DNA from: Romanomermis culicivorax
Lineage: Eukaryota; Nematoda; Enoplea; Mermithida; Mermithidae
Length of the DNA: 64,000 nucleotides
Reading direction: 5' to 3'
Assembly: GCA_963922205.1 (NCBI GenBank)
Contig: CAWUHX010000087.1
Span: 620,001 to 684,000 of the forward strand
Below the pieces are notes generated by a model that was given only the letters and a program-made list of their open reading frames with translations, was not told the origin of the DNA and searched no databases. Made by a program: the position numbers and the translations under genes. This document shows positions 11,535 through 53,000 of the stretch, piece by piece. Within the stretch, counting starts at the first letter, position 1. The number at the start of each line of letters is the position of its first letter.

Positions 11535-11698
11535 GACGGATACTACAGAATATTTTACACTGTCGGATGAATAAAAATTGGAATCGTAATCAGAAAAATT
11601 TATCACAGTTGATTCGGTCCAACGGTACTCTTTCTTTACTGATTGTGGTCCGATACCCTGAAACACTAATTGTGCTCATCTGGATTCATTTTAGAATC

Positions 11699-19212: not shown

Positions 19213-19618
19213 GTTGATTGAACTACTGTGTTAAAATTCCTCATTGTCCGTCTATTTCCAAACAACTAGTTGTGTAGGCCCGAAAATTTTCAATTTGGTG
19301 CGACAGATGGTTTTGCAGAAAATTCTTATAATAGGAAACTGTAATTGCTCAACAGTTTTATAATTCCTTTTTTAACAGACTATGAGTCCTCATCAAAATC
19401 GACAAAGATAACCATTGCTCAAAAACCCACCCCTTCATTATGCGGTAGAAAATTCAAATTTTTACTCGATTAACTCGTAAGTTACTTATGATGTTATACT
19501 GTACAACTTGCCTGGTGTCAATCCACCTTATAACGTTACTATGTTATAGCATTACTTCCTAAGTTTAGGCTTAGGGCGAGGCTATGCTAGGCTTATTTTT
19601 TTGTATTTCGTCAGCAGC

Positions 19619-22377
19619 ATGAATAATTTTACACAAATAACATATGGAATTGGTACAAACAACAGCACATGGGAGTGCAACTTTGTTGCATCTGTGTACT
19701 TAATATTTTCTATCTTCTGCATAACATTTTATGTACTTTGTATTTATTTGATCTTAACGGACAAATCTATCATCAAGCAATCCTATTATCGCATATTAAT
19801 ATTCATGGGAGTTTTGGACTTACTGATTTTAATATTCAACGGCTTATATAGCAGTTTCGCAACTTACATTAGGATTGACGCTTCACCCAACAAGATAATG
19901 TGCTTTATCAATAAATTCGTCGGTGGTTTCATGAATTCGGTGGACATTACTTACATCCTGTGTGCCAATTTATTAGCTTTCAACCGTTTTATGGTCATTT
20001 GCTTCCCAACAGTTTCAAATCGAATTTTTTCGTTGAAAAATTCCAACAGAATTTTATTCTTTTGCACAGTACACAATCTCGTTTTGTTTATTGGTTACCT
20101 GATGCCGGGTTTGAATTTCATATATTCGATTAAAACGTTTAGTTGGGATTACGATACCAATGACATTTCCAGTGGAGCATCTCAAATCGAGAGCATATAC
20201 GATGCTGCCCATACTACTGGAATGACTTTCTGGTATACTGCAATATTCGTACTATTAAAGCTGAAAGTGAGTTGATTTTCGATAATAATTTGTGTAACGT
20301 ACCACCAGTATCTAAGCTTTGTACACTTTCACGTTCACTGTCTGAAAAGTTTTTGAATATTTCTTTCGAATTAGATGTGCTTCAAAAGCGCAAATCTATC
20401 AGTTTTAGACACTTATGTTACAAAAAAGACTAGTACCGTATCTCTGTCGACAATTAAAAATTTTAAATTAGCCGGACAAGGGTATGCAGATGTGTGAGCT
20501 AGGTAGACCACGAATAGATCAAGGAATGATGGCGAATAATTAACCCAATGACGTTTCCAAAAGAACAACTACATCGTTCGGCGAAATGTATTGAAACTCA
20601 TTCAAACACGTCAGACCAGCTAAATTTAAAAACACACTGTTGTATTGGAAATCGAATTTAAGAACAACATCTTGATTGTAGTCCCAGCTTGAAATATTTC
20701 ATAGGAGAAGTTAAAATGATTCCAGTCTTCAACTGATATGAAGTCTGACACTATTGCTCCGACATCACGGTTGAATTGTGTTAGTTTTGTGACGATAAGC
20801 TGTATCCTGGTTGAAACGTCACCTCTGCTCCTTGAAGATCCTTTACCCACAATGTTTAGCTATTTTGCGTCCACTCTGACGCCTATAAGGTAAATGTAAG
20901 ATTGTTTTTCCACACTAGGAAACGCCCATCTGAGGACGTTCAATCATACGATAATTTTTTCAGCATATCTCTTAAAAGCCATTGTTGCTGATATCGAATT
21001 GAGATCGTGCTAAGATCGAGCACAGCTCAAACTTAGCAATCTTAGCAAAATCGTGCCATGGTCTGATTTAACCGCTCCATCAAAGGAATTGTTTTTTGAC
21101 GTGACTGTTTTCTGCTTCCCATCAACCGAACACTGCATGCTAGAAGCTTTTATTTGATGTTGACTTCAGTCTATTCATTGGCAATTAGACCTCGTTGTAC
21201 AAAACCTGCATCGTATACCGGAATATTTTTTTAAATTGTTCTCAGAACTACTGTGCGCAAGGTTTTTTATAATTTATATAGATATCTTTCTGCCCTTCGA
21301 GGCACATTTAAAAAATATGTTATAGATTACGCTCACAAGAGAATGAATTAAACATAATGCTTATATTCCAAATTTGTAACGAAAATTAAATGTTTGAACT
21401 TTTCAGTCGAAACGCGTCAGCCTCATTCGCATCAATCGACATCGCAATCGTGAAATGAAAGTTCTTCTGCAAGCTGTGATTGTTTCGTCGATGATTATTG
21501 TGACTGAGGCCTTGTTCTTTATTGTTCCCAATGATCCGCAAGTCAAATGGCCTCGTTTTATCTCAAATATGCTATGGCTGACATGTTCAGGGATAAACGC
21601 CTTCATTTACTTGGGCTTCAATAGGTAACTTGAATCTAGTAAATTTCAGAGTCAAAGTCAATATTTTAAGAATTGATCCATAGGTTCGATACTAAAACGG
21701 TAATTTGGTGAAAAAACTTGTCACAAATCTTATTGCATCTCACTTAGTTCGCTTGAATATACAAAAGTTGATTCACTAAAACGTAGATTACAATGAATGA
21801 GAAAAATCAAACTAACCAGGAAACTATCTCCAGTGAAAAGTTGCTGCGATAGGAGTATTTACTATGGTATGCCATTTTATCCAAATTCTAGTGTGAATGA
21901 AACCCACCGGGAAGAACGAATTATGTAACACTATTCAACTCGCTTCGGGTATCGAATATGCACAAACTTGTCCCATAAAAGAATTTCCACCGGAGAACGT
22001 TCCCATATAAGTGTAGAAGAATTATATGAGCGTACATATTCAATCAAACAGTGAGGTTCAGTTCTATATATGTTAGTTATAAAAATCACTAAAGATCCAA
22101 AAATTGGTCTAAGTGCAATGCTGATCAAAGTCGCTACTTCTGCATTCTTATAAGAACTGCAAACTTATAATTTCAAAGGTGTGAAAGTAATAGCAAACGG
22201 GAGCAACTTCTTAGATGATCCAGGAAATTCGTACCTGTTAATCTTCTTGTTGATCAATATTTTTCCGTGAATTTTAGCACATTGAGGCGAAAAGCTTTAC
22301 GCGTAATGAAATTGAAGAAAATTACAATGGTAAAAGCGTTGTTTACGATTGGTCATTACGGATCGACTAGAAGCTGA
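19619..22377 (+). CDS. Serpentine chemoreceptor-like GPCR G2 (Srt/Srx-like), three exons
   Basis: This is a 321-residue paralogue of G1. Exons are 19619-20266, 21407-21624 and 22278-22377, with donors GTGAGT and GTAACT and acceptors TTTTCAG and ATTTTAG. The start at 19619 gives MNNF, matching G1, although the frame is open back to 19601. Shared landmarks are WECNFVAS, YYRILIFMGVLDLL, FNRFMVICFP, FSWDYD, RHRNREMKVLLQA, SGINAFIYLGFNR and STLRRKAL. Exon 1 and exon 2 have exactly the lengths of G1 (648 and 218 nt). A 74-codon frame on the other strand of intron 1 (20850-20626) has no recognisable domain. The ligand is unknown; the role is inferred from family resemblance only. Confidence 0.88.
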
Positions 22378-26651: not shown

Positions 26652-28353
26652 ATGAATCATAGTCCGAACATTACTGATATTGATCAAATGGACCAAGTGA
26701 GAGAATGTAATATCGTCGCAACGGTTTATTTACTACTCACTATACTCTATACGGTGCCATATATTCCATGCGTGTATTTGATCGTCACTAACAAAAGCAT
26801 GATTAGTCTGCCGTATTACCGTATACTGCTGTACATGGCAGTATTGGATTTTTTAACCTTAATTTTCACTGGTGGATATAGCAGCCTACTTACATTCTTG
26901 AAACGAGACAGTTCAACCGATTTTTTGACTTTTATGATCAACAAATGCATCGGTGGATTCACTAATTCTGTAAACATCAACTATTTCTTGTGCGCTCATT
27001 TACTGTCATTTAATCGCTTCGTATCGATTTGTTTCCCTGCCCATTCGAACGAACTCTTTTCATTGAAAAATCTAAATACCGTATTCCTGCTGTGCTCCAT
27101 ATATAATTTATTATGGTTCATTGCATACCTAACGCCCACAGTGAGTTTGGTGTATTCGATCAAGACATACAGTTGGGATTACGATGCGAATGATATTTCA
27201 AAACTGGTCTCATCCATAGAGTTTGCTATTGATACGTTTCACTCCGTTGGGATAACGTTTTGGTATATGCTGATATTTGCTGTCTTGAGAGCGAAGGTAA
27301 TGTTTACCTCTTTTCTAGAGATTCAGTCGATCACCTTCTGCATCCCTGATCAAGTGCACGAGTGATTTCTACTGGTAAACATTTGCCCATATATAGAGTT
27401 GCTAGAAAGCTGTGCGTATTTCAAAGCTGGTCTCATTTATAGAGTTTGCTATTGATAGGTTCCTGATTCCTGTGTGTTGGTTCATAGGTAACTTGTGCAG
27501 TTCATGTGGATACTACAGCTGAACACTAGCAAAGTTGCAATAGTCATTTTAGTTCGTGGGTCAATTTTATCTCTACATGACCCGACTTGCCCTGAATCTT
27601 CAGAGCAAACAGGTGTGGTGTGGAGGGTTACAATCCGCATTTGCGATACTTGCCTCAACTATGATACCAATCAAATGTGATCTTTCATATGATTATACTG
27701 ATTATATCTGATAAGATCACTTATTCACAAAATTTAAGTCAGTTGACGACTAAGATGAGTAATGCATTTGAACACATATTAATGCTTAGTAACCCCAGTG
27801 GCGTATCCCGATCGGGAATTCTACCCTCAAAACACAGATGAATTTTCAGTCAAGCACTAGGATCTCTTCGCTGTTCATGCAACCTATTTTTTGCTGAATT
27901 GTATTTTGCAGTATTTTTCCAGCGGAGCCGGATAATTGAACCTCAAGTCAATCGTCAAGCGAATCGGGAGCTAAGAGTCTTACTACAAGCCATTATAGTA
28001 TCTGCATTGGTTATATTGACTGTGTTTTTGTTCTTCACTATACCCAACCAGCCCGAATTGAAATGGCCCCGTTTTATAACGACATTAACATGGTTGACAT
28101 GTTCTGGATTGAATCCACTCATCTACATATCTTTCAATAGGTAATTTTGAATTAATTTCATAGCTTCAACAAAATGGTCGTCATAATAAAGTACGATGTT
28201 TGCAAACTTCTGAGTTGAATGCCAAATTTTCTAATACGATTTTTTTCTATTTGTAGTAAATTGCGCAGGAAGATTATTCAGGTAATGAAGTGCAATCATC
28301 AGAATGGAATTGGAACATTTTCGGCCGCTGGTGGTAGAGCTATCAATGGGTGA
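26652..28353 (+). CDS. Serpentine chemoreceptor-like GPCR G3 (Srt/Srx-like), three exons
   Basis: This is a 319-residue paralogue. Exons are 26652-27296, 27923-28140 and 28257-28353; donors are GTAATG and GTAATT, acceptors TTTTTCCAG and TTTGTAG. Another possible exon-2 acceptor at 27911 would bring in an early stop, so 27923 is preferred; it also restores the 218-nt length of exon 2 seen in all paralogues. Landmarks are RECNIVATVY, YYRILLYMAVLDFL, FNRFVSICFP, YSWDYD, ANRELRVLLQA, SGLNPLIYISFNR and SKLRRKII. The SGLNPLIY segment is close to the rhodopsin-type NPxxY. The tail ends only 65 bp before the LTR element at 28419, so the natural 3' UTR is probably truncated or now ends inside the LTR. 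Confidence 0.88.
27417..27461 (+). repeat. Partial duplication of G3 exon 1 inside its own intron 1
   Basis: TATTTCAAAGCTGGTCTC..ATAGAGTTTGCTATTGATA repeats exon sequence at 27194-27240 with few mismatches. It is non-coding in its present position. Confidence 0.85.
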
Positions 28354-28629
28354 TAAAAGTTTCTATTGCCATGGATTCGATGAAGCCAAAAAACGAGTTG
28401 TTTGATGTTGAAGAGTTTTGTAATGTACCTGCTAAAGCAGTACTGTAAATATGTAGCATACTGTATGTGATAGACATTTATTAGGTATTATTTCATTTTT
28501 CGTATTTTATCGTCTCAAGGGTGTCTGGAATTCACACCCAAACATTCCTACAAAATTACGTGGAGTACTTTATTTTGATCCCTTCACACCCCGGTAGCCC
28601 AATTAAGATGCCCCAATTAATTTGCACAA

Positions 28630-28890
28630 ATGGCAGCTGGTCCCCTACAACCTACACTAAACTACACATTCCACAGCTACCGTAATCGTAAACAACACCT
28701 GCCCACAGTAAAATACGTAGAAACCCCGCCAGACAGTAGTCTCAAGTGTAACAGTAGCGACGGCCCCACAAAACATGTGTATACAGAGAAACGGATACAG
28801 GAAGCATGCACAGAAGCACAGAGGTGCGGCCAAGCCCACCATAGAAAGCAAGCGAAGCACGAAAAGCATACAGTACCAGAAAAGCATTAG
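28630..28890 (+). CDS. 86-codon ORF in U3 of the LTR (function unknown)
   Basis: An ATG frame of 86 codons lies entirely in U3, upstream of the TATA box. The same frame is intact in the 3' LTR (36926-37186), where the only difference I see is a synonymous TGC/TGT change. The predicted product is basic and His/Lys-rich at its C-terminus, with no signal peptide and no domain I recognise. In the genomic transcript this frame would sit at the 3' end, after integrase. It may be a chance frame. Confidence 0.3.
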   Translation: MAAGPLQPTLNYTFHSYRNRKQHLPTVKYVETPPDSSLKCNSSDGPTKHVYTEKRIQEACTEAQRCGQAHHRKQAKHEKHTVPEKH

Positions 28891-29001
28891 AAAGGTGTAA
28901 CTAAGAAAGCATAAAAAGCGTAGCAGGAAGCGACGATTGGCGGAAGAAGATGGACAGAAGCTTGACCTCCCGCGACACCCAGGGAGTGGCCAAAAACGTC
29001 G

Positions 29002-29009
29002 TATAAAAG
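29002..29009 (+). promoter_or_regulatory. LTR TATA box
   Basis: TATAAAAG lies in a context identical to the 3' LTR copy (37298-37305) and at a sensible place, about two-thirds into the LTR, for starting transcription of the element. The copy at the window's left edge has a mutated version. Confidence 0.7.
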
Positions 29010-29322
29010 AAGAAGCAAAGCGTGATTTTTGTTATTATTGGTTACAATTTTGGAATTTCGAATTCGTCATTTTAAACCGCACTCGCCCCGTCTTTTTATA
29101 TTTGCAAGCGGCCATTTGTACGAAAGCAACTTAAACCAAGGCTCCCGTTTGTTATTGTAAATCGAGACACGTTTTCGTATTGTCGTATCGACGTCACAAG
29201 CAGCCACCGATCATTGTAACCATATCGCCCCGTAACACCGCCCGTGCCCCGTTCCGTTATAGCAGTAACGTCCATTTCGTTAAAAGTAAAGTGCTTCACA
29301 CAAATCTAGTTGTTACATATTT

Positions 29323-29332
29323 TGGTGACAGT
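29323..29332 (+). other. Candidate primer-binding site of ERV-A
   Basis: TGGTGACAGT starts five bases after the end of the 5' LTR. It begins with the TGG expected for pairing with a tRNA CCA end; the tRNA species cannot be decided by eye. Confidence 0.5.
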
Positions 29333-29559
29333 ACCATACCGTTAACCACTGGAACTCCCTGCCCCAATTAGGTGTACTCTTATCTGGGCATTTAGAAGCA
29401 TTAGATAATACAGTAGTAATCATTTCCTACAGTAAGACAGTATTTGTAGAAAGCAAACTGGAAATCCCCTCCAATGAAACATTAAGCGATACATTTGAAC
29501 GAATACAGTGTGGAGCAAAAATTGAAGCATTTAAGCAGAAATCCCATCGTAAACCAAAA

Positions 29560-30591
29560 ATGACCCACCAAACACAAGATCATTTAGGAGAAATCGTTAG
29601 AGAACAGATAAACAATTTATTTTCAGAACATTTTCGTACCCTACACACACAATTGAATCAGAATACAGTAAACCCTACCCTAACAGACGATCTAAGAACA
29701 GCAAACATTCGTAATAACATGGCGAATAATTTTTAAGCGAAACCTACAGTATTCACGGGCAGCATGACCCAACATTTTGGTGAATGGAACAAAAGATTAG
29801 AACAATTCATGGCACTCCAAGGCATGAAAGATACAGACGTACAGTTAAAGTTGGCATGTTTAGAAATTCATTTAGGAGGAGCCGCATAAGCAAAATTCAA
29901 AAGTTTAGCCAATTCCGAAAACCCTCCCCACACATACGAGCAGTATAAAGTCGCATTACAGGCATTTTTCCCAAACAATAGAGATAATGAGCTACATCAA
30001 CAATTCTTACGCGAGAGAAAGCAAAAGCGATCAGAAACAGTAACGGAATTCTTATTTGATCTAGAACATCTCGCAACCCTCGCCTACCCTAACTTTAACA
30101 CAGACGCACGAGAAATGATCATAAAACCCCTCTTTGTAGAAGGCATGCAAAACGAAATCAGAGAAGCAATTAAGTACAGAAGGTTCGCAACTCTAAAAGA
30201 AATGTCAGACGAAGCAGCTTACATTGAACAGCAAATTCTTAGAAATGAGTTAAAATCTAACCCCCTTCCCTTCGTACCCCCAAAACCCGAACCCAACTTT
30301 TCCCTAACCAAAAATACAGACCAACAGGACCTTTTGCATCAGTTAGAACAACAAGTAAAAGATTTACAGTTGCAGATCAAACAAAAACCTCAACCCCCAC
30401 AACAGAGTAGCTACAATAATTTCAGTAACAATACTTTCAGCAGGAATAATGCTTACAGGAACAATACCACCCCTAGGCAACCCACATGCTTCCAGTGTGG
30501 ACAAATTGGACACGTAGCTAGTAACTGTAAGTCAGCAGCCACCCGGAAATCATGTGAAATTTGTTTTCGTAATAATCACAGTACAACGTGA
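29560..30591 (+). pseudogene. ERV-A gag (capsid and first zinc knuckles), interrupted
   Basis: This is the structural core protein of the element. The frame from ATG 29560 runs to 30591 with two in-frame TAA codons (29734-29736 and 29887-29889), both easily derived from CAA. The middle (29740-30110) shows a retrotransposon gag-type helical domain with FGEWNKRLEQF and a YEQYKVALQAFF segment. The C-terminal part is Gln/Asn-rich, then carries a CCHC knuckle (CFQCGQIGHVASNC). The frame ends inside a second knuckle; the rest is found one frame over at 30554-31345. An open frame without ATG extends upstream to about 29345. Confidence 0.85.
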
Positions 30592-31345
30592 TTGTAAAAG
30601 CCGATGCATCCACTGCTCCCAAACAGGACATAGATCTGATAACTGCCTTTCCAAACCCTACTCAAATTTTCAATGTTTTCTATGCAAGCAAAGACGTCAT
30701 ACAAGCAGGTACTGTCCGAATCAACAGAGTCGTAATATTCAAAATTGCATTGAGTACAGGCAACCCCAACCCCTCATGGACATTGATGACCCCCCATTTT
30801 ACTCAAAACTACCCGCCATAACTAATGGCCCTCAGACTACTTTAGGAACAATTATGCCCACTACCCACCGCCGTAGTGAGGAATACGTCCTCGACCTGGA
30901 CGTACCCGATTGGTGCGCCATGTCACCACCCCCCACGCCTGAAGCTGCAAAAATCGAAAAATCGCCGCCCACCATCCCCGTAGGCTACAAGATCCCCCGA
31001 AAACAAGACACTACGCCGCCCACCACCCCCGAAACCCCGTCGAAAACAGGCCGCAACTTGTTATCCTATCTACGTGGCCTGACCCCCGAACCCTACCAAT
31101 TCCGCCCCCGCCAAACACTTCTACCGACCCCCACAAGTAAGCAAGTCCAAACCCCATCCCATAACTCAACTTCTAAAGTTTTACAGAATGTTCAGATTGC
31201 AAACCGGCCACCCCCCAGCTCAAAATCGCAAAACGACAACACCAAAAGCCCCAACACCAAACCGGCCACAACGAAAACATACAGTGCCCCGCCGCCTCCA
31301 CTAAAACATTCTATTGGCCGATGTTTTGTATTTTTCTTTGTATAA
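30554..31345 (+). pseudogene. ERV-A nucleocapsid continuation with two more knuckles and Pro-rich tail
   Basis: This frame takes over from the gag frame in the middle of a zinc knuckle. It contributes two further CCHC knuckles (CIHCSQTGHRSDNC and CFLCKQRRHTSRYC) and then ~190 residues rich in Pro, Thr and Ser (MSPPPTPEA, TTPPTTPET). The one-base offset from the previous frame (30583-30597) could be a programmed shift or a simple mutation. The tail overlaps the start of the env-like frame by 25 nt. Confidence 0.75.
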
Positions 31346-33203
31346 TAATCCCCACATCGTGTAGTGCCCAATTTCAGATGTGTGGAACTTCATTGAGCGG
31401 TCACTCAGTCAGCATACCGAAACTTGTATCATGCATGCCCCCTTCCACAGTAGACAAACCCGTACAGACACTCGGAAAAATCTATATCCCCTCCACTAAG
31501 CCCCACATTACAGACGCATACAAATGCAGTGTTCGCAAACGCAAAATTTGTACTAATACAGGATTTTTTGGATCAAAAGGTATTGTCTTCGACCAAACCG
31601 AAATGCAAAATCTAACCCCACATGTTTGTAAGGCAATCCTTATAGACAAAGAACACAATGGTCAAAAATTATACGAAACCCAACCAGGATTTTGGTCAAC
31701 AAATAACTCCCTAAGCGTAGAATACACATGGTGTTGTACAGACCATTGTACCTCGGTCACTAACGTCATCATAGAAATAGGACAAATAGCATCTTGGAAT
31801 GGAAAATCTATGACAGGTACATTAGGTGACCTAGAGTCATGCAAACCGACATCAGGTTATTGTGTTACAGCCGATGGATCCATTATCTGGAATGAAACAG
31901 CATTTGAAAACTTATGCCCTTTCGAATACAAAAATACACACCCCATCAAACTCACGCAAACACACATGATAATAGAAGAACTACAAGGTGCATTCTCGGT
32001 TAAAAATACAGTTTTTTCGAACCCCAATTGCCCAGAAATCCAAGACAGCATTCTAACCGAACAAGGCATTATCGTACAATTAGACAAAAGCACCCCACAT
32101 CGTAACGCATTTTTAACCCCAAAAACCAATGAAACCCATACTACACTCTACGATTTTGATGATTTTGAACCCATTAACGCGAAACTAAACTATCTAGCAG
32201 ACAAAATACAGGAATTCGAAATTCAAAATTTCAAAAATGCATGGAATGAATTATGCAGACAGGCACAGCATCACCTTGATCTCCTATGACAAATTTACAT
32301 CTTGATGCAACCCTTGGAGCGCGTGCATTCCTACAGCGAAGGGACATCATAGCAGAATTCACAGGAGAAGCCCTCACAGTCTGGCCCTGCAAGCAGGTAA
32401 ATGCATATAAAATCTTTTACAACCACAAAATCAACCAAACATGCTACAAACTTTTGCCCATTCTCGTAGGAACTGAACTCATGTTTTCAAATCCAGGAGG
32501 CAACGATTTGACCCCTTTTTCACAAACCGTTGACTGCCATCACATGCATGTAGCCCTTTACAAACAAAATAATACATGGGTCAGTGAAACAGGATCCCCG
32601 CATGTCACAAATTTACCTTTAGAAATCGTCTGGAACCAAAATTTCTCCCTTTTCCATTTTAATACACCCACCATTTTTCATGATCAACTTGCAACTATTT
32701 CAACCAACTTACTCTTTTTGAAACAATACATTCACAAAACTCACACACTTGAAAACGTCGTCAGAAAACTCGTCAATTACACCGCCCAAATGTCTCTCAA
32801 TTCCAATACAGTTTACAACATGATCTCAGGCACTGGCCAAGCACTCGGAAATACACTCACTGGCGCCGGTCAAGGCATAGAACATGTAATAACTGGTACC
32901 ACCCAAAGTCTCACAGACGGATTAAACAATTTACTCAAAGGACCCCTGCAAATCATTATTAATCTAGCCGTTATTACTGTAGTTATTGCAGGCGTCTTTT
33001 ATTTGTTTCTCGTTCTTCGAAAATATTTCCCCTCTCCAAAGCATCATGCCACAAACGAACATGCATACGAAATACCATCAAACAACAGACATTTACATGA
33101 GACCATTCCCCCATCATTCGGCCATGCTCTCTTAGAATTAGCTAATTGTCGTGGGGCACAAACACAGCAGAAATACGTCCTTGTCGATATTGATACCCCC
33201 TGA
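31321..33203 (+). pseudogene. ERV-A env-like membrane glycoprotein, located between gag and pol
   Basis: Two abutting frames (31321-32289 and 32286-33203) together encode ~620 residues. The first opens with a hydrophobic signal-peptide-like segment (FCIFLCIIIPTSCSA). It continues with a cysteine-rich ectodomain that includes a CC..HC cluster (TWCCTDHC) and DGSIIWN. Eight N-x-S/T sites are visible across both frames. The second frame ends with a heptad-like Leu/Asn/Gly stretch, one strong transmembrane helix (IIINLAVITVVIAGVFYLFLV, about residues 225-245) and a ~60-residue tail. The two frames meet at an ATGA overlap; coding character continues without gap, so a frameshift mutation in a single gene is more likely than two genes. 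By fold it may be a glycoprotein captured from a negative-strand RNA virus, but that is conjecture. Confidence 0.75.
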
Positions 33204-33911
33204 ACCCCTGCAATCGAACTCATTAATCAAATTCACCAATCTGCATCAAATAAGCCACCCCAAAATGTACCTGAGAAACATACCCCTCATATTCCAATCA
33301 CACTTAACGGCAAATTAATGACAAAAGGCATGATTGACACTGGTGCAGTTTACTCACTCATTGATTCCCGAATCGCTCAAATCCTACAGTTAGACATGAA
33401 ACCCCGGCTAGTCCAAGCAAAAGCAGCAAATAATCTCCCAATTCATTTTGTACGGACCACTTTTGTCACACTAACAGCCCAAACAATCCAGGAAACAATA
33501 ATGGTTCATGTCCAAAAAGATTGCACAGCAGATATCCTTTTAGGAAAAAACTTTCTCAGTCGATTCTCCAAATATACTATCAACAATCAGAAATCCCCGG
33601 TCAAATTAGGCAATGTCAAACTACCTTGTGACAGCCTAGAATATAGCCCCCTTTCGACCCGTGGTGGAACTTACCTAGACGAGAAATTAGAATTACCACC
33701 CCGTACAGTCACTGAATTTACTGTCCCCTTGCCCAAATCATACCTACAAGTTAAACAGCTTGAATTTACTCCGAAACCCAAGCAGAATCCCAAAGTCCAT
33801 TTCGCAGCTTGTATCTCTGAAAACCAAAACAGTCGCATACGCATATCGGTCTTAAACACACAGGACACAGACCAAACTCTTTACCCTGGAACATGCATTG
33901 GTACAGTCTGA
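33204..33911 (+). pseudogene. ERV-A retropepsin-like protease region
   Basis: This is the aspartic protease that would cut the polyproteins. It is in the same frame as the preceding env frame, separated only by TGA 33201-33203. The active-site segment MIDTGAVYSLI and the later DILLGKNFL (the usual ILG-type motif) are intact. The frame ends at TGA 33909-33911 and continues in frame into the RT region. A ~100-residue segment after the protease core resembles the linker before RT in gypsy elements. Confidence 0.85.
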
Positions 33912-35518
33912 TGTTACATCCCAAAACAAAATGCTTCCGGTAAAGTAACCCCCTCCATGCAAAACCAGCCCAATCGTTTTGATACATTCACATGGTTAAA
34001 AGAAAATGTTAATTTTACCTCCAGTGACCTGACAGAAGCAGAAAAAACGCAACTCCTACGCGCCCTGTCGAAGTATCCTACATTATATGCTAAATCCAAA
34101 ATTGACGTAGGTCGAACCACTCTTGTTTCACATACAATCGACACCAATCGCTCCCAACCCGTACATAGACAACTTTATTGGACTTCCCCAAAAGAAAAGC
34201 AAATCATACAAGCAGAAGTTGAGCAACTTGCAGCAGCAGGTGTCATAAGCCAATGCAATTCTCCATGGTGTACCAACACAATTTTAGCCCCAAAAAAGAT
34301 GGAGGCCATCGTTTATGCATTGATTTTAGAGGCCTCATCAAAGTAACCAAAAAAGATACATACCCCTTGCCCCGCATAGACGAAATTCTAGACACCCTCC
34401 GTGAAATGAAATATTTTACGTCCCTTGATCAATCCAATGCATATTATTCCATTCCTATAGCACAAGCAGACAGAGAAAAAACGGCCTTTAATTGCTCAGC
34501 CGGCCAGTATCAATTCAACATGCCTTGTATATCTCGACAATGGAACACATGCCTTGTATATCTCAATGATGTTTTGGTATTCGCAGACTCCCATGCCCAA
34601 ATGCTGGAACGTTTAGACACTATTCTTGCCCGATTCTCACAAGCAGGCCTTAAACTAAACATACAAAAATGCAAATTCTGCCAGCCCCAAGTCCGATACT
34701 TAAGCCACGTCATTTCCCAGCAAGGCATTTCACCAGATCCCCATAAGGTACAGGCCATCTATGACATACCCACACCCAAAAGCTCAAAAGAAGTTAAGTC
34801 ATTCCTTGGCCTACCCTCGTACTATCGCAGATTCATCCCAAATTGCTCTCAAGTTTCTAGCCCACTAACATCACTACTCAAAAAGAACTCAGAATTTTCC
34901 TTGGCCCCTGAACAGCAAAACGCATTCACTAAGCTAAAAGAATTACTCATTCATGCCCCAATACTGCAACATCCCGATTTCACAAAACCGTTTATTCTGC
35001 AAACTGACGCCTCAAAACTCGGAATCTGCGCCATTCTCAGTCAGCTCGACAGTGAAGGTCAGGATCGCCCCATTGCCTTTGGGAGCTGCGCACTAAAACC
35101 CGCAGAACGCAACTACCCGATAACTGAGTTGGAAACCCTTGCAGTAGTAGAGTTTGTCAAGTATTTACACCCCTACCTTTTCCAGCAACATGTTATTGTA
35201 CACACTGACCATACAGCAGTTCAGGCAGTCTTACAAAAGGAAAACCTGTCCCCTCGCATTGCCCGTTGGGGATTAGCCCTCTCTGGTATTCAGCTAGACA
35301 TTCGACCTCAGAAAGGCACTGCTAACTGCAACGCAGATGCAGTTTCTCGATTCCCCTCACAGACAGCAAAACAATTCTTTGACATTGAGCAATTAGAAAC
35401 CCCCCCTGAAATATCCACCATCAATTCGGTTCTTGAAGCTGAAGCAACTGAACAAGAAGAGCAACAGAAACTTTTGCCGAACTCCAATGCACTGATTCAA
35501 CTGTCAAAGGTATTTTAG
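33912..35518 (+). pseudogene. ERV-A reverse transcriptase and RNase H, frameshifted and internally deleted
   Basis: RT motifs appear in order: GVISQCNSPW and, after a one-base frameshift in an A-run near 34300, GGHRLCIDFRGL and LDQSNAYYSIPI. The fingers-palm part is then cut: the PFGL..NAP block is missing, and the catalytic YxDD reads YLND (Asn codon 34565-34567). An 18-bp sequence starting ACATGCCTTG is present twice (34518-34535, 34547-34564) at the deletion site. RNase H follows with all four acidic positions visible (LQTDASKLG, PITELETLA, VHTDHTAV, NADAVSRF). The frame drifts to another phase between 35409 and 35518 before integrase. Confidence 0.88.
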
Positions 35519-36686
35519 CAAAAATCGCCCAAAAACACCCCCTTACTCTGATCAAATTCGCAGTACATCAAAACATCCTCTTCCGAATAGTCCACAAACA
35601 AGCAAAACTCTACATTCCCAAGTCACAGGTCCAGCAACTCATTGCCTCACATCATGACAGCGAATTCACAGGTCATTTTGCTGCCTGGAAAACTTTACAC
35701 TTGCTCAGACAGAAATATTTTTGGCCCCAAATGAGCCGTGATATCAAACTTTACTGCAAGACTTGCCACCCATGCCAGACACAGATAGCTCTCCGGCACA
35801 AAGTACATGCGAATCTGGTACCAATTGGTACCCATTTCTGGTACCCATTTGATAGAGTCGGTGTTGATTGCATGGGACCGTTACCCCTCACTGAAGATGG
35901 TAACCGATTCATTGTCATCTTCATCGATTATTTCACAAAGTATGTAGAGGCATTCCCGACCCCTGACATCACTGCAGCCACTATTGCCAAGTTATTCGTA
36001 ACCAAAATTGTTTGCCGTCATGGGTCCCCAAAAATCATCCATTGTGATCGTTTCTCTGATTTTGTATCCGATCTCTTCTCAGGGATCACCAGTTTATTCA
36101 ATACTCAGAAAATTCATACTACCCCATACTATCCCATTGCCATTGGGGAAGTTGAGCATTGCAACCAAACTTTAGCCACCCTTACATTAATTCAAATCAC
36201 ACTGATTGGGATACTTATCTACCATATGCCGTTTTTTCGATCAACATTCATAAAAATGATAGCACCTCGTATCCCCCATTTGAATTACTCCATGGTAGGC
36301 AAGCTAATCTGCCATCAGACGCAGCTTTACATTTTTTCCCCACATCCTACAAGGTTGATTTAGATGACTACACCCTTCGTGTAAAATCGCATTTTACAGA
36401 AGCACTCTCAACCGTGCAGAAAAGCTTACAAAAAGCCCAAGACCACTATACCCGTCAGTATAACAAGCATGCTCAGAACATACATTACAAGGCAGGTGAC
36501 CTTATTCTTTACAAAAATCATTCGTGTAAACAAGGGTTAACTCCCAAATTCCTCCCTCGCCAAAACGGGCCCTATACAGTTCAACATTTCATGTACCCCA
36601 ATGTTACACTTGAACACCCCCATAAGAATATCACATTTATGGTGCATGTAAACGAGGCAACCCCTTTCTACCCTCGGATGCCTTGA
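35441..36686 (+). pseudogene. ERV-A integrase, frameshifted
   Basis: The integrase would insert the element into the genome. The zinc-binding HHCC domain is readable (SHHDSEFTGHF...CKTCHPCQ, about 35647-35785). The catalytic core shows VGVDCMGPL (first Asp), IIHCDRFSD (second Asp in an altered context) and GEVEHCNQ (Glu). A frame change falls near 36160-36190; the core then continues with YLPYAVFSINIHK and the C-terminal domain with a GPY-type motif (RQNGPYTVQHF). The region ends at 36686, directly before the polypurine tract, so no gene follows integrase. Confidence 0.88.
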
Positions 36687-36701
36687 ACGAGGACGAACTC
36701 C

Positions 36702-36714
36702 GGAAGGAGGGAAA
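36702..36714 (+). other. Polypurine tract of ERV-A
   Basis: GGAAGGAGGGAAA directly abuts the start of the 3' LTR and is the expected primer for plus-strand DNA synthesis. Confidence 0.85.
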
Positions 36715-37621
36715 TGTAACCTACCTGCTAAAGCAGTACTGTAAATATGTAGCATACTGTATGTGATAGACATTTATTAGATATTATTTCATTTTTCGTA
36801 TTTTATCGTCTCAAGGGTGTCTGGAATTCACACCCAAACATTCCTACAAAATTACGTGAAGTACTTTATTTTAATCCCTTCACACCCCGGTAGCCCAATT
36901 AAGATGCCCCAATTAATTTGCACAAATGGCAGCTGGTCCCCTACAACCTACACTAAACTACACATTCCACAGCTACCGTAATCGTAAACAACACCTGCCC
37001 ACAGTAAAATACGTAGAAACCCCGCCAGACAGTAGTCTCAAGTGTAACAGTAGCGACGGCCCCACAAAACATGTGTATACAGAGAAACGGATACAGGAAG
37101 CATGCACAGAAGCACAGAGGTGTGGCCAAGCCCACCATAGAAAGCAAGCGAAGCACGAAAAGCATACAGTACCAGAAAAGCATTAGAAAGGTGTAACTAA
37201 GAAAGCATAAAAAGCGTAGCAGGAAGCGACGATTGGCGGAAGAAGATGGACAGAAGCTTGACCTCCCGCGACACCCAGGGAGTGGCCAAAAACGTCGTAT
37301 AAAAGAAGAAGCAAAGCTTGATTTTTGTTATTATTGGTTACAATTTTGGATTTTCAAATTCCTCGTTTTAAACCATGCTCACCCCATCTTTTTATATTTG
37401 CAAGCGGCCTTCTGTACAAAGCAACTTAAATCGAGGCCCCCGTTCGTTATTGTAAATCGAGATGTGTTTTCGTATTGTCGTATTGACGTCACAAGCAGCT
37501 GTCGATCATTGTAATTGTATCGCCCCGTAACACCACACGGGCCCCGTTCCGTTATAGCCGTTCCCGCTGTAACGTCCATTTGGTTAAAAGTAAAGTGCTT
37601 CACACAAATCTGGTCGTTACA
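36715..37621 (+). repeat. 3' LTR of ERV-A
   Basis: The 907-bp LTR starts TGTAAC and ends GTTACA. Relative to the 5' LTR it has a ~9-bp insertion near 37560 and many transitions in the last 270 bp. The U3 ORF (36926-37186) and TATA box (37298) are intact. Confidence 0.93.
36926..37186 (+). CDS. 86-codon U3 ORF, 3' LTR copy
   Basis: This is the second copy of the frame at 28630-28890, with the same length and translation. Being in the 3' LTR it would lie at the end of the element's own transcript. No domain is recognised; it may be fortuitous. Confidence 0.3.
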   Translation: MAAGPLQPTLNYTFHSYRNRKQHLPTVKYVETPPDSSLKCNSSDGPTKHVYTEKRIQEACTEAQRCGQAHHRKQAKHEKHTVPEKH

Positions 37622-39164
37622 GTTTTATCACAAACATGAAAATGTACAAAACTATAAGACCGAGTTATTCTTACACGCCAGTCGCGACATTAAAGCAATC
37701 TTGACAGAATTTTTGTGTGCGTTTGATTGTACATTTACTGCTTGACCTATCGCTCACCAATTTCAGCTTGGATTGAAATTGAAGAAGAGTTATGAATAAA
37801 TTTAACTTTATAAGTCCAAATCTTACTATACGAAATGAGCTTACTGAAACGTTCATGATGCCTCACCCATAAAGCTACTGTAATCATTATAGAAGAAGAT
37901 GTTCCTCATTATCGTAAATGATCTCCAGAGGCCTGTTTCATAATCATATTGGAGTATTATTGATACTATTATTAACATTTATTGGAACTAATAAAACACG
38001 TTGCATAATAAATATTAGTCTTTGTGATGATTTTCTTATAAAATATTGGTTAATCACGAATAAAAGTCCGTTTCATCACAGACTAATGTATATTTGTGAA
38101 CATATCATCAATATTATTTCTCATTAATGACACTGAATAATTTTTTAATAATAAAAACAGAAGATATCTTGTTTGCATGTTTTTCACTCAACGAACATCA
38201 TTTAGGGCGGATCAAAACTACAATGGTATAATTTTTCGTCCAATCGAATCGCATTGAATGCATCCTAGAACTGAAGATGCACTGTTATGAATTTCCTGGT
38301 ACGGACAAAGACAAATTGTTAGTAAATCATTGGAAACCGTAGTGTTCAGAAAACTTACCAGTAATCGCCACGATTTAAAGGATTACAAAAGTGAAAGAAC
38401 ATCGTCATGCATTGTGAACCCGTGCTGAGCTCTCAAGTCGATTTATGCTAAGAAGTCAACATGATCTTATAAGTATAAGTTTTTAGTCGAAGCTACTAAA
38501 ACCCCAGTATCTTCATTTGTTGTGAATCATGATAATACACTAGTTGTGTACCATCGACGTGTGCACGTAATCAAACGAGAAAAGAAAATAAAGTGTAATT
38601 TCATTATCGTGTCAAATCCAGAATATTTGAGCTCCTTTGAATTTCAGGTATTCCCACACCTGCCAACCTGATTTAGAATATGTACATCGCTTTGCTTCCT
38701 GAAACATCAATTTTGATTTCCAAGGACCTTAAAATATTGTAACCAAAATAAGATAAGATCTGCTCACGCATTTTCTACTGATAATTCTTGACACTTTCAT
38801 CAATATTTTGCTATTAGTGAAATTGTCAATGTTTTATTGGTAAGCACGTCATGCTTTGCCAAAATCATTAGTGGTAATTTTTTCCAAATGAGCCTGGGAG
38901 AGAAAGTAGAAGCTCATGCAAATAATGAGTAACATGGGTACCCGGCCGCCTTCTTTATCAGATTGTCGCCCAATGTCACGTGATCCGCATAATATTTTTT
39001 CCATTATGTTTTTCGCCACGTTTTTGTTTTACAGTAACTTAAATTAATTTTGCGTTTCGTTTTTATATTTTACATGCAATTTCTGTGTGTACTTTTTGCG
39101 TTTCATTTCTGTTTCATTTTCACACTTTTATTTCCGTTACGATTTATTATTTTCCCATTACACA
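37622..39164. other. Intergenic, no gene seen
   Basis: This is host sequence resuming after the ERV-A insertion. Small frames exist but none has a recognisable domain or repeat. Confidence 0.5.
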
Positions 39165-43004: not shown

Positions 43005-44130
43005 TTTCTTTCATTTGTGCCCTACTGTTCGTGTTCGAATGTAATCCTTCATATACTTTTTTCACCCAATGGAGTGAGATTTCTAACAGCCCTTCCGCGG
43101 CTCTCAAATTTATAAAAAACAGTATCATTCCCTGTACTTGAAATACAAAAAATGTTCCCGAATGCTGAAAGACAATTCTTCACGAGTAAGAATAATAAGC
43201 AACTTTTGACACATTTAGGTAATAATAATTCTTCTTATATAATACTAACACGAATAGCACGACATTAGTGTGTTAATCTACACGATATGTACTTATTTAA
43301 CATATTTTCGTGATCAACATAATCTTCTGCGTTCTCTTTTTTATTTTCGCCACGAAAGCATAATATGACCATGCAATGATATAAGTCGACTTTCATCATC
43401 ATAAATTGCACAATAAGGAGAATATCACGCACTCGTAATCCATCTTTGAATCGTTCTGTCATCGACCTTTACTTATGCATATAATTTAGGCAATAAAATA
43501 ATGATGGAATCTCGAAACTTTCGCACATATTATTAATCTAATTATACAGCTTCGTGTATAATTATACTAATTACTTGACGTACTTGACTTTAATCAACAA
43601 GGCTCAGTTTCAGTCTGCTATAATATTTGCCTTGTCATTATCCAATTTTTCAAGAAGTTGACAAGCTTTGGGAAATTCAGTTGAATCGTTGTCAGGCCTG
43701 TATCTCAGAATTGGTGCCGTTACTTTCAGTTGACATTGTCATGGATTTTCAATCTAAATTATCACGAAAATGCATTTCGTAACATCTTTGTGAAAAGGTG
43801 GGTTTTTCGATGTAGTTTTTTCTTATTGTTTCTCATGTAATCTGCATTTTAGTAGATTAATCTGCAAATGCGGGTTGTTCATCGTCATTAATTTATCATC
43901 TTACTTTATCAGCTTGTTTGATATGTGCTTTTGAATTCATTAATGCGCATTATAAATAGATGAAACGTTTTTTAAATTAAGTCAACAAATAGATCAAGAG
44001 TAAACGAAGAAATTATTCCTTATTTTGCCTCGTTGCACATTTGATCATTTCTATGCATGCAAGATATCTCCAAATTTATCGATAACTTGTTATATTTGAA
44101 TTTTCAGGTGTAGAATTGATTTTTGAATTA
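43005..44130. other. Intergenic upstream of G4
   Basis: No gene-like frame is present. A GAATTTTCAG acceptor-like site at 44098-44107, 24 bp before the G4 start codon, could serve trans-splicing or a 5' UTR intron. Confidence 0.45.
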
Positions 44131-45369
44131 ATGAATGACTCCAAGTACTTAGCAAATAATAAAGGCAATGAATGTTCGCCCTGGGATTGCAATTTCGTTG
44201 CAACAGCTTATCTGGTCAGTTCGGTGATTTATATTTTCTTCTATATACCATGCACGTTTTTCATCATATCGGATAAAAACATGATTAACCAGTCATATTA
44301 CCATATAGTCATTCATATGGGTGTTTTAGACTTGTTAACATTAATTCTAAATGGATTGTACAGCAGTATACTTACATACTCTAAGGTCGACAGTTCCACT
44401 GATTATACGACATTCATGGTCAACAAGATCATCGGTGGTTTCATGAATGCAGTGGGAGTCACTAACATTTTATTCGCCCATTTACTGTCGTTCAACCGTT
44501 TTATGGCACTTTGTTTTCCACATCAAGCAGCAGTTCTTTTTTCGCTAAAAAACACAAGAAAAATATTATTGCTATGCTGGACATATCATTTCGGTTGGTA
44601 TATGTCCTATCTCATGCCTGGATTGAATATCGTTTACTCTCTCGAAACATTCAGTTGGGACTATGACATTAATCACGTTTCAAGACTGGCTTGTGGCATA
44701 GAATTCATAGTCGACATGACCAATGTTGCTTTCATGGTTTTTTGGTACATTTGCATAAGTATCGTTCTAAAGCTAAAAGTAAGTCGATCTGCGCGTTTAA
44801 TGATAACTCTTTATGATTGTATGCTAAGCATGATCAATTAGTAAAATGATGCGATTTTTTAGACAAGCTCAATCTTATTGGACCAAGAAAACCGTCGGCG
44901 GAAACGAGAATTAAAGGTTTTGCTACAAGCTTTCATCGTTTGTGTATTGGTTATATTGACAGTAGCAGGATTTTTCATCATACCGCAAGTCTATGACTCG
45001 AAATGGGCTTGTTTCTCCGCCAATTGCATATGGCTATCATGTGCAGGATTGAATTCCGTGATTTACATGTGCTTCAACAGGTAATTCAATTTTCGTTCAT
45101 ACAACCTGTAAGTTCTGATAGTAACTTTCTGAAATAATTTATGTTTTAGCTCAAATCTTATATCTCATTTTCGATTAATAACTAAACTCTAACGGATGAT
45201 TGCTACTTTCTCTTTGATCGCACGTTTCCTACAAAGTTTATTGTTACAATTTGAATCTACTGTTTTTAGCACGCTGAGGAGAAAAGCACTCGACATGATG
45301 AAATGGCAACAGAAAAATAGTATTGGAATAATATTTACTAACAATCTCAACAGAGTTACCGGAGCCTAA
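44131..45369 (+). CDS. Serpentine chemoreceptor-like GPCR G4 (Srt/Srx-like), three compact exons
   Basis: This is a 321-residue paralogue and the only one free of insertions: exons 44131-44778, 44863-45080 and 45270-45369 with introns of only 84 and 189 bp. Donors are GTAAGT and GTAATT, acceptors TTTTTTAG and TTTTTAG. The start at 44131 (MNDS) matches G5; the frame is open upstream to 44116. Landmarks are [67 protein letters not shown] and [13 protein letters not shown]. It is closest to G5 in the window (both have CSPW before TM1 and FNRFMALC after TM3). It is probably a chemosensory receptor with unknown ligand. Confidence 0.9.
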
Positions 45370-50000: not shown

Positions 50001-53000
50001 TCTTCACAACCTGGAGATAGACTATGTCCATCCCCGACATCCCTCGAACCTCGAAACTGACCAACGGGAGGTTAAAAAGATTCATAATACGCCGCAATGA
50101 CAATTTCGGAACTTTCAGGACCTAATACAGTCAATGCAGTTTTCGGAACCTTTTTGGTCATTCATGCCCTCTTGCAGAAAGCTTTCCCAATGACCACCCC
50201 CTTACGTCAAGTCTTTTTACCAGGCATACCGGAATGTCTACAAGGCCGTCTGGGTGCGCTACCTCTTGGTCTGGACGCCGAGGGACCGATGACTCCTCAT
50301 CAGTTTGACTTTGTTGGCCTACTGCCGAATCCAATTGGACCTGCACCAGGGCCACAGGTCTTCAGTTGCTGACCATCCCATGACCTTTCGGTTCATGCCA
50401 TATGCTGGATGCCAAGGACAGAACATTTATCTGTCTATCCCTTCCCGGTTGCCTGTTTCGCGGTGAAGTCTCCACCAGCATTCCAATGTTACCCTGGCCA
50501 AAAAAATTTTTTTACAAAATCTAAATAATCTACAAAATATGTACATTATTACGATTATCACAAAAAAATCAAATCCCGGGCTTCGTCCATTGAGCAAAAA
50601 ATAAACAAAAAGAAAAAATAAGGTGAGATTATAACCAAGATTAAGTGAAAAAATAAATTTTTGTACATGCCCATTTTGGCTATGCGAGGTACGAAAAACA
50701 AATAGAAATTTAAAGCACGCAACAATCAAGAATTTTTTTTTGTATTTTGTATTTTGTAATTTTTTTGTGATTTTGTATTTTTTTTGTATTTTGTATTTTT
50801 TATCTACAATAATTACAAAAACGTAATTTTTTGGCCAAAAGCCCTGCGGCTAATTTACTGTTGCGGCCCGCCGCCTCCTAGCGCCCCTCTGTGTGCTCCT
50901 CCACAACCTCCGTAAGGCCTCCATACCCACTGGCCCTGCTGGCCGCCTCTACCCTGCACCTGGGGCACAACACCTCTGCCATGCACCGCTCCATGACCAC
51001 CCCGGTTGGGATTGTGGAACTGAAATTGGCCTCGGCCGCAGTTACCAGTTTTTTGCACCTTTCCTTACATAATCGGGGCTAATTCCTGGCTTCCTTGGCC
51101 TTGACCTTGACCTTAAGGTCCGGGAACCTCCAAAGTTTTGCCAGTTTTTCTGTCTTGAGCTTTACTGAATTTAACAGAGCTTTGCAAGTCTGAACTGGCA
51201 CTCATTTTGGCTCCCATCACTCCGACCTGTTGATTGCTACTGAGCATCATGGATCAAAAGGCCGTTTTGAATTCCAAGGGGGTATCCTGGCTTTTATACA
51301 TGCTCAACAGTGGGTTATTTGCCGCCACCATCGCCCTGGCATAAATGTTGCCAATATGCATTTGGGATTGCGGGGTGCATTCCAACATGAGGAATAGCAT
51401 CCTAACCAGGTACCTGACCAAGGAAAACACATCAGGTGCTAATACTCTTTTATGTGCATTTTCGAGACCCTTTATCTACTCTTTGGGTAACTTTACCCAC
51501 TAATACTCTTTACTTTTGGGGCACTCTGACACCTTTATGCAAAACACCATTGGAATTTTGAACTTTTGAAATTTTTGGAGCGGGAACTTGATATTTAGCC
51601 TTTTTGGCCGTTGGATGTCCCTTTATAGAAACCAAAATTGATAGGCGAAAGTATGTGAAATTAGGTGTTTTTCACTCTAAACCCAACACACCTCTGCTAC
51701 TCGATGAGCTCAATTGATCACAACCTTGATTTCCACGACTAATTTCTGCTAATCCCCTTCTCCATCACTTTGCAGGAACCAGAGGGAGCACGAATGACAA
51801 AAACCTACCCTAATCGGATCACCTAATTTGACCGAAGTCTTTTTCGGATCACCTACCTTTGGCCCTTGCCAACCCCTTCTACCTAATTTTTTTTCTATTT
51901 CTCAACTCCCAGTTGGTAGCTTGTCACAGAAAAGGCACAGAAATAGTCTTGCAAAACAGCCCTGACAAGCGTAACCTCCGCTCATTACCTTACTTAGCTA
52001 TTTACAAGGATAAAAAATGGTTTCTTACCATCAACCGAAAAATATCGATTGTTTTGCTGCGGGTGTGGCTCCCCAAACTGGACCTCATTGTGTGTTGCGT
52101 TGTACATATGTGTACACTCGTTGCACGTACCCATTCAAATATTGGGCCCACATTCTTTGCACCAAAATATTTTAAAAAATTTTTTAAACCGAATTTGCAG
52201 CTGTGAAAAGTAGACAGATGAATAAAACATTTACAGTCTATTCCCTTGCGGCTGCAAATTACCTTACCTTAGGGTTCTTCGGTGCAAAATATTTTCGAAA
52301 AGTTTTGAAAAATTGAGAGCAGATGTGGGACACGACTTTTGAAAGTTTTGAATGATTTTGAGTTGTTAACCAAGAAAGTATAAAATGAAAAATGTATGAA
52401 AACGGGTCATTTGCTTTAAAAGCTCTTCCCCCGCTTCATTAAAATACAATCCTATACGTCAAAAAAAATTAAAACGGATTTTAACCATTACAAAACACAA
52501 TTGGAATAAATATTTATTAAATATACAAAATAAATATACGCAAATCCGCAGATTTTGCCGCTACAAAACTACATCAGGTGCTGCTCCATTCTCCACTAAT
52601 TTTGAAGGTACAGTAAGACCATATGATCGATTTTTTGCATAGTTCTGCCATCGTGTAGTCTCGTAGCAAAAAATTTTCAGCCTACTTACTGAAACCTTTT
52701 GCCATAGCAGAAGATTATCATAATGTGCGATTGTTATCACATTATCTTCTAATCTTGAGACATCAGTGATAATGAAGGGTCCTTCCCAAGTCAAGCCCAA
52801 TTTCTTGTGCTTATCAACTTTAAGAAGTACATAGTCATTTTCTTTAAAAACTGAGGTTTTAATTTTCTTGTTGAAATATCTTTTGCTAGCTTTGGCTGCT
52901 TTCTGGATATTTTCGGCAATAATACCATAAAGCCTGGTTAGTTGGTCAGTTAGGATGAATTTATATGCCTCACAATTAATGGGCACTACTATTTTAAGGG

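Follow-up and report, generated by a model that had tools for sequence, protein, structure and literature searches.

We describe a long terminal repeat (LTR) retroelement of the mermithid nematode Romanomermis culicivorax in which an envelope-like gene (env) stands between gag and pol. With a probability of roughly 0.7, it represents a Ty3/gypsy-type nematode lineage that carries a glycoprotein B (gB)/chuvirus-like fusion glycoprotein as an internal domain of one Gag-Env-Pol polyprotein. The element occupies positions 28419–37621 of the window, i.e., the 64,000-nucleotide stretch of contig CAWUHX010000087.1 that was analyzed (assembly GCA_963922205.1, forward-strand positions 620,001–684,000), and its parts follow each other in the order gag, env, protease, reverse transcriptase (RT), RNase H, integrase. 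An initial annotation, made from the sequence of the window, had proposed this order, which is present in the window, in other genomic copies and in further families.

Copies were sought in the source genome (359 Mb) with the second env part of the window element as Env query, and at least 129 env places were found at 94–100% identity, the window included. The frame is open over at least 2,450 codons at 58 of the 129 places and over at least 2,200 codons at 71, the commonest length being 2,486 codons (18 times). Searches with gag and integrase were taken to the best 150 places each and the lists were paired by position, an unpaired place not being evidence of absence; among the matches listed there are 53 gag–env pairs (40 in the same frame), 71 env–integrase pairs (55 in the same frame) and 32 gag–env–integrase triples (20 in the same frame). 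Gag and integrase lie about 5,510–5,650 bp apart in 59 of the 60 gag–integrase pairs among the matches listed, the remaining pair (1,782 bp) having an internal deletion, and none of the 60 has the spacing of an env-less element (about 3.7 kb). Full copies with the same gene order, which the annotation had suggested looking for, are thus present in the source genome, and an arrangement with pol directly after gag, and env only in the window, is absent from these pairs. LTR pairs were identified in nine of ten copies tried, no pair being found in the tenth; within these pairs identity is 98.3–100%, and each of the nine copies is bordered by a different 4-bp duplication. The element has therefore been mobile recently, and as one unit. 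On contigs C77, C2 and C26 copies recur at regular intervals, 7,308 bp for three copies on C77 and about 8.4 kb for pairs on C2 and C26, a pattern suggestive of tandem elements with shared LTRs.

In many copies the coding region is one frame. At 18 of 29 loci (3.9 kb each) it stays open all the way from the gag tail, across Env and protease, and into RT, which would allow translation to continue from Gag into both Env and Pol, and the annotation's suggestion of a different strategy for expressing pol gains support at the level of sequence. Calculated from frame positions, Gag comprises about 590 codons and Env, including its tail, about 627; the frame of copy L034 has its first ATG 231 bp in. 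In copy L002, Env starts with a hydrophobic segment ending in CSA and continues with an ectodomain that contains 16 cysteines and nine N-glycosylation motifs, after which come a single transmembrane segment and a tail of roughly 60 residues; this Env has no RxxR or (R/K)x(R/K)R site, and one KR only. The first codon of the signal segment is TTG in 14, ATG in 13 and another codon in two of 29 other copies, and residues 21–62 of the piece, around the signal, are devoid of Met in four of eight other representatives; an own start codon for Env was rejected on both grounds, and since the first codon is not conserved as ATG, Env has no conserved start of its own. 2A-type skipping was also rejected (NPGP is absent from the Env of copy L002), as was a meaningful frameshift between gag and env, for which equal frame lengths had suggested a sub-family. 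Alignments show separate small length changes within and close to C-rich runs, and from these sequences we attribute the gag/env frame differences to decay, to slippage of reverse transcriptase or to errors of assembly. The initial annotation had foreseen neither the single frame nor an internal signal peptide that lacks a start codon of its own, nor the gB-like identity discussed below.

Env and its junction with the protease have been under strong selection. Over 153 pairs of the 18 open copies, the ratio of nonsynonymous to synonymous differences (pN/pS) is 0.067 for env and 0.061 for protease–RT, i.e., the constraint on Env is comparable to that on the enzymes. Within Env, pN/pS is 0.080 in the N part, 0.028 in the center, 0.080 in the stem, 0.18 in the transmembrane segment and 0.027 in the tail; downstream it is 0.062 in the tail–protease linker, 0.10 in the protease and 0.026 in RT, and before Env it is 0.14 in the first 120 codons of the gag tail. 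Counting shared variants as those in at least two copies, the fraction at third positions is 70/82 for the ectodomain, 9/9 for the tail, 11/11 for the linker, 74/92 for protease–RT, 3/4 for the transmembrane segment and 2/5 for the signal. The low pN/pS in env, tail and linker makes it most likely that Env and the Env–protease junction were translated and needed while family A, to which these copies belong, multiplied.

The env-like frame matches viral fusion glycoproteins (Pfam Monjiviricetes_fusion, PF24664; E 9.1e-19), and this family is matched by 14 of 14 aligned Envs, among which 34 columns are listed as invariant. A structure-based search of the glycoprotein had been recommended by the annotation, and in it the predicted Env fold matches herpesvirus gB; the Env family profile likewise matches herpesvirus gB (best E 9.6e-07), profile and fold match both covering the central helix and flanking domains. 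The fold is thus predicted to be gB-like, as in class III fusion glycoproteins, and we take the gB/chuvirus-like glycoprotein of this element to belong to that class. The possibility, raised by the annotation, that the env frame is an extension of gag was rejected on the combined basis of Pfam, family profile and predicted fold. An earlier Env model built from three sequences had a mean predicted local distance difference test score (pLDDT) of 35.3 and was of no use. Two Env relatives were found among 5.8 billion proteins, and none with the length range for longer proteins, in viral contigs or in bacterial and archaeal genome contigs; PF24664 is named for Monjiviricetes, and no chuvirus sequence was returned by the Env searches of proteins, viral contigs and bacterial/archaeal contigs. 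One relative, P0005, is filed under a gammaproteobacterial metagenome-assembled genome on a 1,383-base contig and is probably a stray animal contig.

With P0005 as query, at least 102 genomic places were found, headed by families B, C and D at 42–44% identity to the query. Family B has nine places, five of them in frames of 2,471 codons, while a family C Env query returned at least 72 places, 20 of family C itself (87–100% identity) and 52 others at 37–44%, with frames of at least 2,200 codons at 24 of the 52. In family D, a single frame of 800 residues contains two zinc-knuckle motifs, the signal and the beginning of Env, and a DTGA motif follows Env, with RT to integrase further on. Eight further representatives are all open from before the signal to past Env, and in seven a protease follows Env, recognized in five by Pfam (four of these matches fall slightly short of the curated cut-off for the best protease family) and in the other two from an (I/V)DSGS motif; three were traced beyond this region and have zinc knuckles upstream and RT downstream, in pieces that are open. 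The Env pieces of 12 representatives, families A–D included, are 29–57% identical under the same gene order, which indicates that the order is old and has diversified together with Env. RT pieces of six representatives score 175–345 bits against each other and 147–163 bits against the ordinary Ty3/gypsy-like element that also lies in the window, its piece being shortened by its open reading frame (ORF). The correlation of RT and Env similarity over 15 pairs of the six families (Spearman 0.49, p 0.06, pairs non-independent) is suggestive only of co-inheritance.

The LTRs, 4-bp duplication, primer site and polypurine tract that the annotation had ascribed to a single element can all be read in the window, where the parts are as follows.
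28415..28418, no strand: target-site duplication, left (GTTT), read from the sequence
28419..29317, + strand: 5' LTR (TGT...ACA), 899 bp
29323..29340, + strand: candidate primer-binding site, TGGTGAC..., read 3' of the 5' LTR
29560..31320, + strand: gag with capsid, zinc knuckles (zf-CCHC 6.3e-06) and Pro-rich tail, frame-broken in this copy
31321..31368, + strand: predicted internal signal peptide of Env (hydropathy), 16 codons
31321..33203, + strand: env-like glycoprotein (Pfam), two ORFs in this copy (31321–32289 and 32286–33203)
32316..32642, + strand: PF24664 fusion-glycoprotein core, residues 11–119 of ORF 32286–33203
32943..33017, + strand: Env transmembrane segment, followed by the tail; hydropathy peak of the copy L002 Env, mapped to the window
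33318..33911, + strand: aspartyl protease (DTGA), gag-asp_proteas 3.2e-08
34253..35518, + strand: reverse transcriptase and RNase H, RVT_1 1.5e-20 and RT_RNaseH 3.2e-35
35701..36686, + strand: integrase, two frames in this copy, Integrase_H2C2 2.2e-09 and rve 6.4e-07 (just under cut-off)
36702..36714, + strand: polypurine tract GGAAGGAGGGAAA, abutting the 3' LTR
36715..37621, + strand: 3' LTR, 907 bp
37622..37625, no strand: target-site duplication, right (GTTT), read from the sequence

Nine other located copies have TGGTGACCGTACC at the same place as the candidate primer-binding site of the window, and the polypurine tract is identical in nine other located copies. The gag piece of the homologous copy L034 matches Retrotrans_gag (5.7e-06) and, below cut-off, Ty3_capsid (1.7e-04). 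The window copy itself is decayed, with more than one frame each for gag, env, the RT region and integrase, and with the env break near the middle of the gene; PF24664 is found on its second env ORF (4.7e-12), and no Pfam family is matched by the first. The annotated env (31321–33203) stands as to glycoprotein identity and place, however, its ATG at 31321 is not a conserved start and its frame is split in this copy. The two LTRs of the window are 94.6% identical over 908 alignment columns; they are 98% alike over the first 300 bp and 87–88% over the last 200 bp, a pattern as after recombination or conversion between copies.

We propose that one full-length RNA would be translated from Gag onward, with Gag made first. 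As the internal signal emerges, the chain would be brought to the endoplasmic reticulum (ER), the Env ectodomain would enter the lumen and signal peptidase would cut after the signal; the transmembrane helix would then stop transfer, so that protease, RT, RNase H and integrase would be finished on the cytosolic side. The protease of the element, located on the Gag/Pol side, would free both at the cytosolic face. Gag, Env and Pol would start out tethered at one membrane in equal amounts, and Env may give, or may once have given, the particle a fusion step between cells. A gag-env-pol topology fits such membrane threading because both neighbors of Env would be cytosolic and Env luminal; translocation, topology, cleavage, particle release and any envelope function are what we infer from this arrangement. 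Going further, it is an even bet that these families form a radiated nematode lineage of enveloped retroelements whose sole product is a membrane-threaded Gag-Env-Pol polyprotein, with the Gag C-terminus anchored by the Env signal peptide and Pol hung from the Env tail, whereby assembly, Env incorporation and protease activation would be coupled at one membrane. Such a strategy was not met for reverse-transcribing viruses in our literature searches; RNA viruses with a capsid-signal-glycoprotein order have a similar expression and assembly strategy.

Several observations weigh against the proposed polyprotein. The Env model has a mean pLDDT of 64.5, with good values for the N-terminal domain but low ones for the stem, and its template modeling scores (TM-scores) to gB are 0.2–0.3 in most rows of the comparison, at a root-mean-square deviation of about 20, meaning that the domains match better than their arrangement. 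A Pfam protease was not found in three of the eight further representatives, and the 800-residue frame of family D has no Pfam domain at 0.001, hence no Pfam gag. The copies used for pN/pS were picked as open, which lowers pN, equally for env and RT. Frame breaks recur in several copies in the short C-rich, Pro-rich linker before env (window about 31100–31320) and may stem from relaxed constraint, slippage or assembly error; constraint is weak in the signal (pN/pS 0.36) and in this linker, i.e., the last 57 gag-tail codons (0.77). The weakly constrained linker also speaks for expression of Env from a spliced message, as in errantiviruses, in which an acceptor near the env start would receive a short leader that brings a start codon or, by trans-splicing, a nematode spliced leader, Gag-Pol would be made from RNA with env removed, and the single frame would be merely permissive. 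There is precedent in Drosophila elements, where a spliced transcript is described as the typical source of Env, arising in one subclade from within gag (PMC12992720, available passages). When splice sites were scored in the 18 copies with approximate matrices and mononucleotide shuffles as control, acceptor-like sites exceeded the shuffles (6.0 vs 3.5 per copy). Relative to the first env codon, such a site lies at +50 in all 18 open copies and another at −142 in 10 of them, and a donor-like site is present at −187 in 11. The site at +50, a strong acceptor-like ATTTCAG just after the signal segment (window 31371–31378), is followed, in the window and in copy L002, by an in-frame ATG, so that a message spliced there would make Env without its signal; the site may be due to chance, or it may serve a second product. 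Yet use of this strong acceptor would cost Env its signal, donor-like sites are no more frequent than in shuffles (4.9 vs 5.0 per copy), and the conserved downstream acceptor-like sites lie inside Env (+1503), inside the protease (+2233) and deeper in pol (+3004), where none of them would allow a clean removal of env ahead of the protease. The tail–protease linker is moreover constrained as coding sequence in the same frame, and the long frames at 24 of the 52 places of other families (at least 2,200 codons) also tell against splicing, which we consider an unlikely, if credible, explanation.

The env block might instead be read within Gag-Pol as a captured glycoprotein that acts as a structural spacer, or as an ER membrane anchor for assembly, and has no envelope role. 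With in-frame fusions at both of its ends, it would be part of every particle precursor, and an anchor needs just a signal, an ectodomain and a transmembrane helix; however, selection is spread over the ectodomain (pN/pS 0.03–0.08 by part) and the invariant columns and the gB-like core have been kept, which is more than a mere anchor would need and leaves this explanation a slim chance. That the window holds two nested elements or a single chimeric insertion has a negligible probability. The decay of the window copy and the larger difference of its LTRs at their inner end would suit such an origin, but the env places outside the window have the same order wherever gag or integrase could be paired with them, apart from the one internal deletion, and the independent target duplications and the further families exclude a chance order as well. 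Nested elements were rejected on the same arrangement of the other copies, and the annotation's view of one element rather than two is borne out.

Env-bearing retroelements are regarded as the path that led to retroviruses, env having been placed behind pol and, in flies, being expressed through splicing. A lineage that keeps a gB-type fusogen ahead of pol in a single frame, and has diversified while carrying it, shows that the env-behind-pol order is not forced, and raises the testable question of how cytosolic Gag and Pol and a luminal glycoprotein could come from one chain. A gB-type Env in a Ty3/gypsy element would join the F-type, class II and BEL/Pao cases.

The second retroelement of the window (52561–58633, − strand) has Pfam protease–RT, RNase H and integrase, with an upstream gag-like ORF without Pfam match about 200 bp from the protease–RT ORF, and is a natural contrast to the gag-env-pol element. 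Five similar ORFs (11567–12421, 19601–20275, 26652–27365 and 44116–44841, + strand; 62188–62853, − strand) form a serpentine chemoreceptor gene cluster, the four of them that were tested all matching Srt/Srx, as befits a nematode genome, and a DDE_Tnp_4 transposase fragment is found at 7180–7578 (9.7e-13).

In its RT–RNase H, the element is closest to Ty3 among solved structures, with 229.9 bits for 4ol8, presumably the Ty3 RT, and 229.7 bits for Transposon Ty3-G Gag-Pol polyprotein, followed by an 'Enzymatic polyprotein' (142.6 bits) and a Gag-Pol (93); the comparison covered solved structures, with no BEL/Pao RT among the matches. Together with this RT, the LTRs with TG...CA ends, primer site, polypurine tract, 4-bp duplication and protease–RT–RNase H–integrase succession are shared with env-bearing Metaviridae, and by the sequence of its pol and gag the element is of Ty3/gypsy type. 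The International Committee on Taxonomy of Viruses describes the Env of Metaviridae, where present, as encoded downstream of integrase (PMC7879559), a descriptive feature and not the sole family criterion. As judged from sequence, the element departs from this description, its Env lying between zinc knuckle/nucleocapsid and protease and not after integrase, and it is not an errantivirus by Env type. In the available passages on Drosophila errantiviruses (gypsy, ZAM and kin), Env is of baculovirus F-type and made from spliced RNA (PMC12992720), whereas the present Env is gB-like, matches PF24664 and, in copy L002, lacks a furin-type site.

Other animal elements are compared here as far as the available parts of the cited papers describe them. 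Atlas virus of Ancylostoma ceylanicum (Belpaoviridae) is likewise a nematode element with a single uninterrupted polyprotein that includes a viral glycoprotein, however, its order is Gag-Pol-Env, its RT BEL/Pao and its Env a class II, phlebovirus-like protein (PMC9094657). Cer7 of Caenorhabditis elegans, compared by description only, is a nematode LTR element with an envelope-like protein attributed to a herpesvirus, but it is a BEL/Pao element and the glycoprotein lies downstream of the polyprotein (PMC7642597); the position of Env after pol, common to the env-bearing Belpaoviridae Atlas, Tas and Cer7, is not that of the present element. Anakin of mosquitoes is an LTR element with a chuvirus glycoprotein, differing in its BEL/Pao pol (PMC7642597). 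The same group later described insect Gypsy fragments near Jingchuvirales glycoproteins, in the available text without a clear case of capture by a Gypsy element, as well as two fossil glycoproteins of nematodes with simple repeats on either side (PMC10084718); the present lineage may explain nematode chuvirus-like glycoprotein sequences so far counted as viral fossils. Cer1 of Caenorhabditis elegans is a Ty3/gypsy element with genes numbered as one polyprotein, but its extra gene after pol, made by splicing, encodes CERV, a nuclear RNA-export factor and not an Env (PMC10309623). Bdelloid elements are described as carrying a third ORF (PMC5408684).

The term 'gag-env-pol' was not found in the 5.39 million papers searched, most subscription papers, bioRxiv, Repbase, Dfam and GyDB lying outside this collection. 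Preprint work on env-bearing Ty3/gypsy elements across animals reportedly exists and may overlap with the present findings. The glycoproteins to which the Env is most alike, in profile and predicted fold, are herpesvirus gB and the chuvirus/borna-type G; these are encoded by separate genes in those viruses, whereas the present version is predicted to be an internal domain of a retroelement polyprotein.

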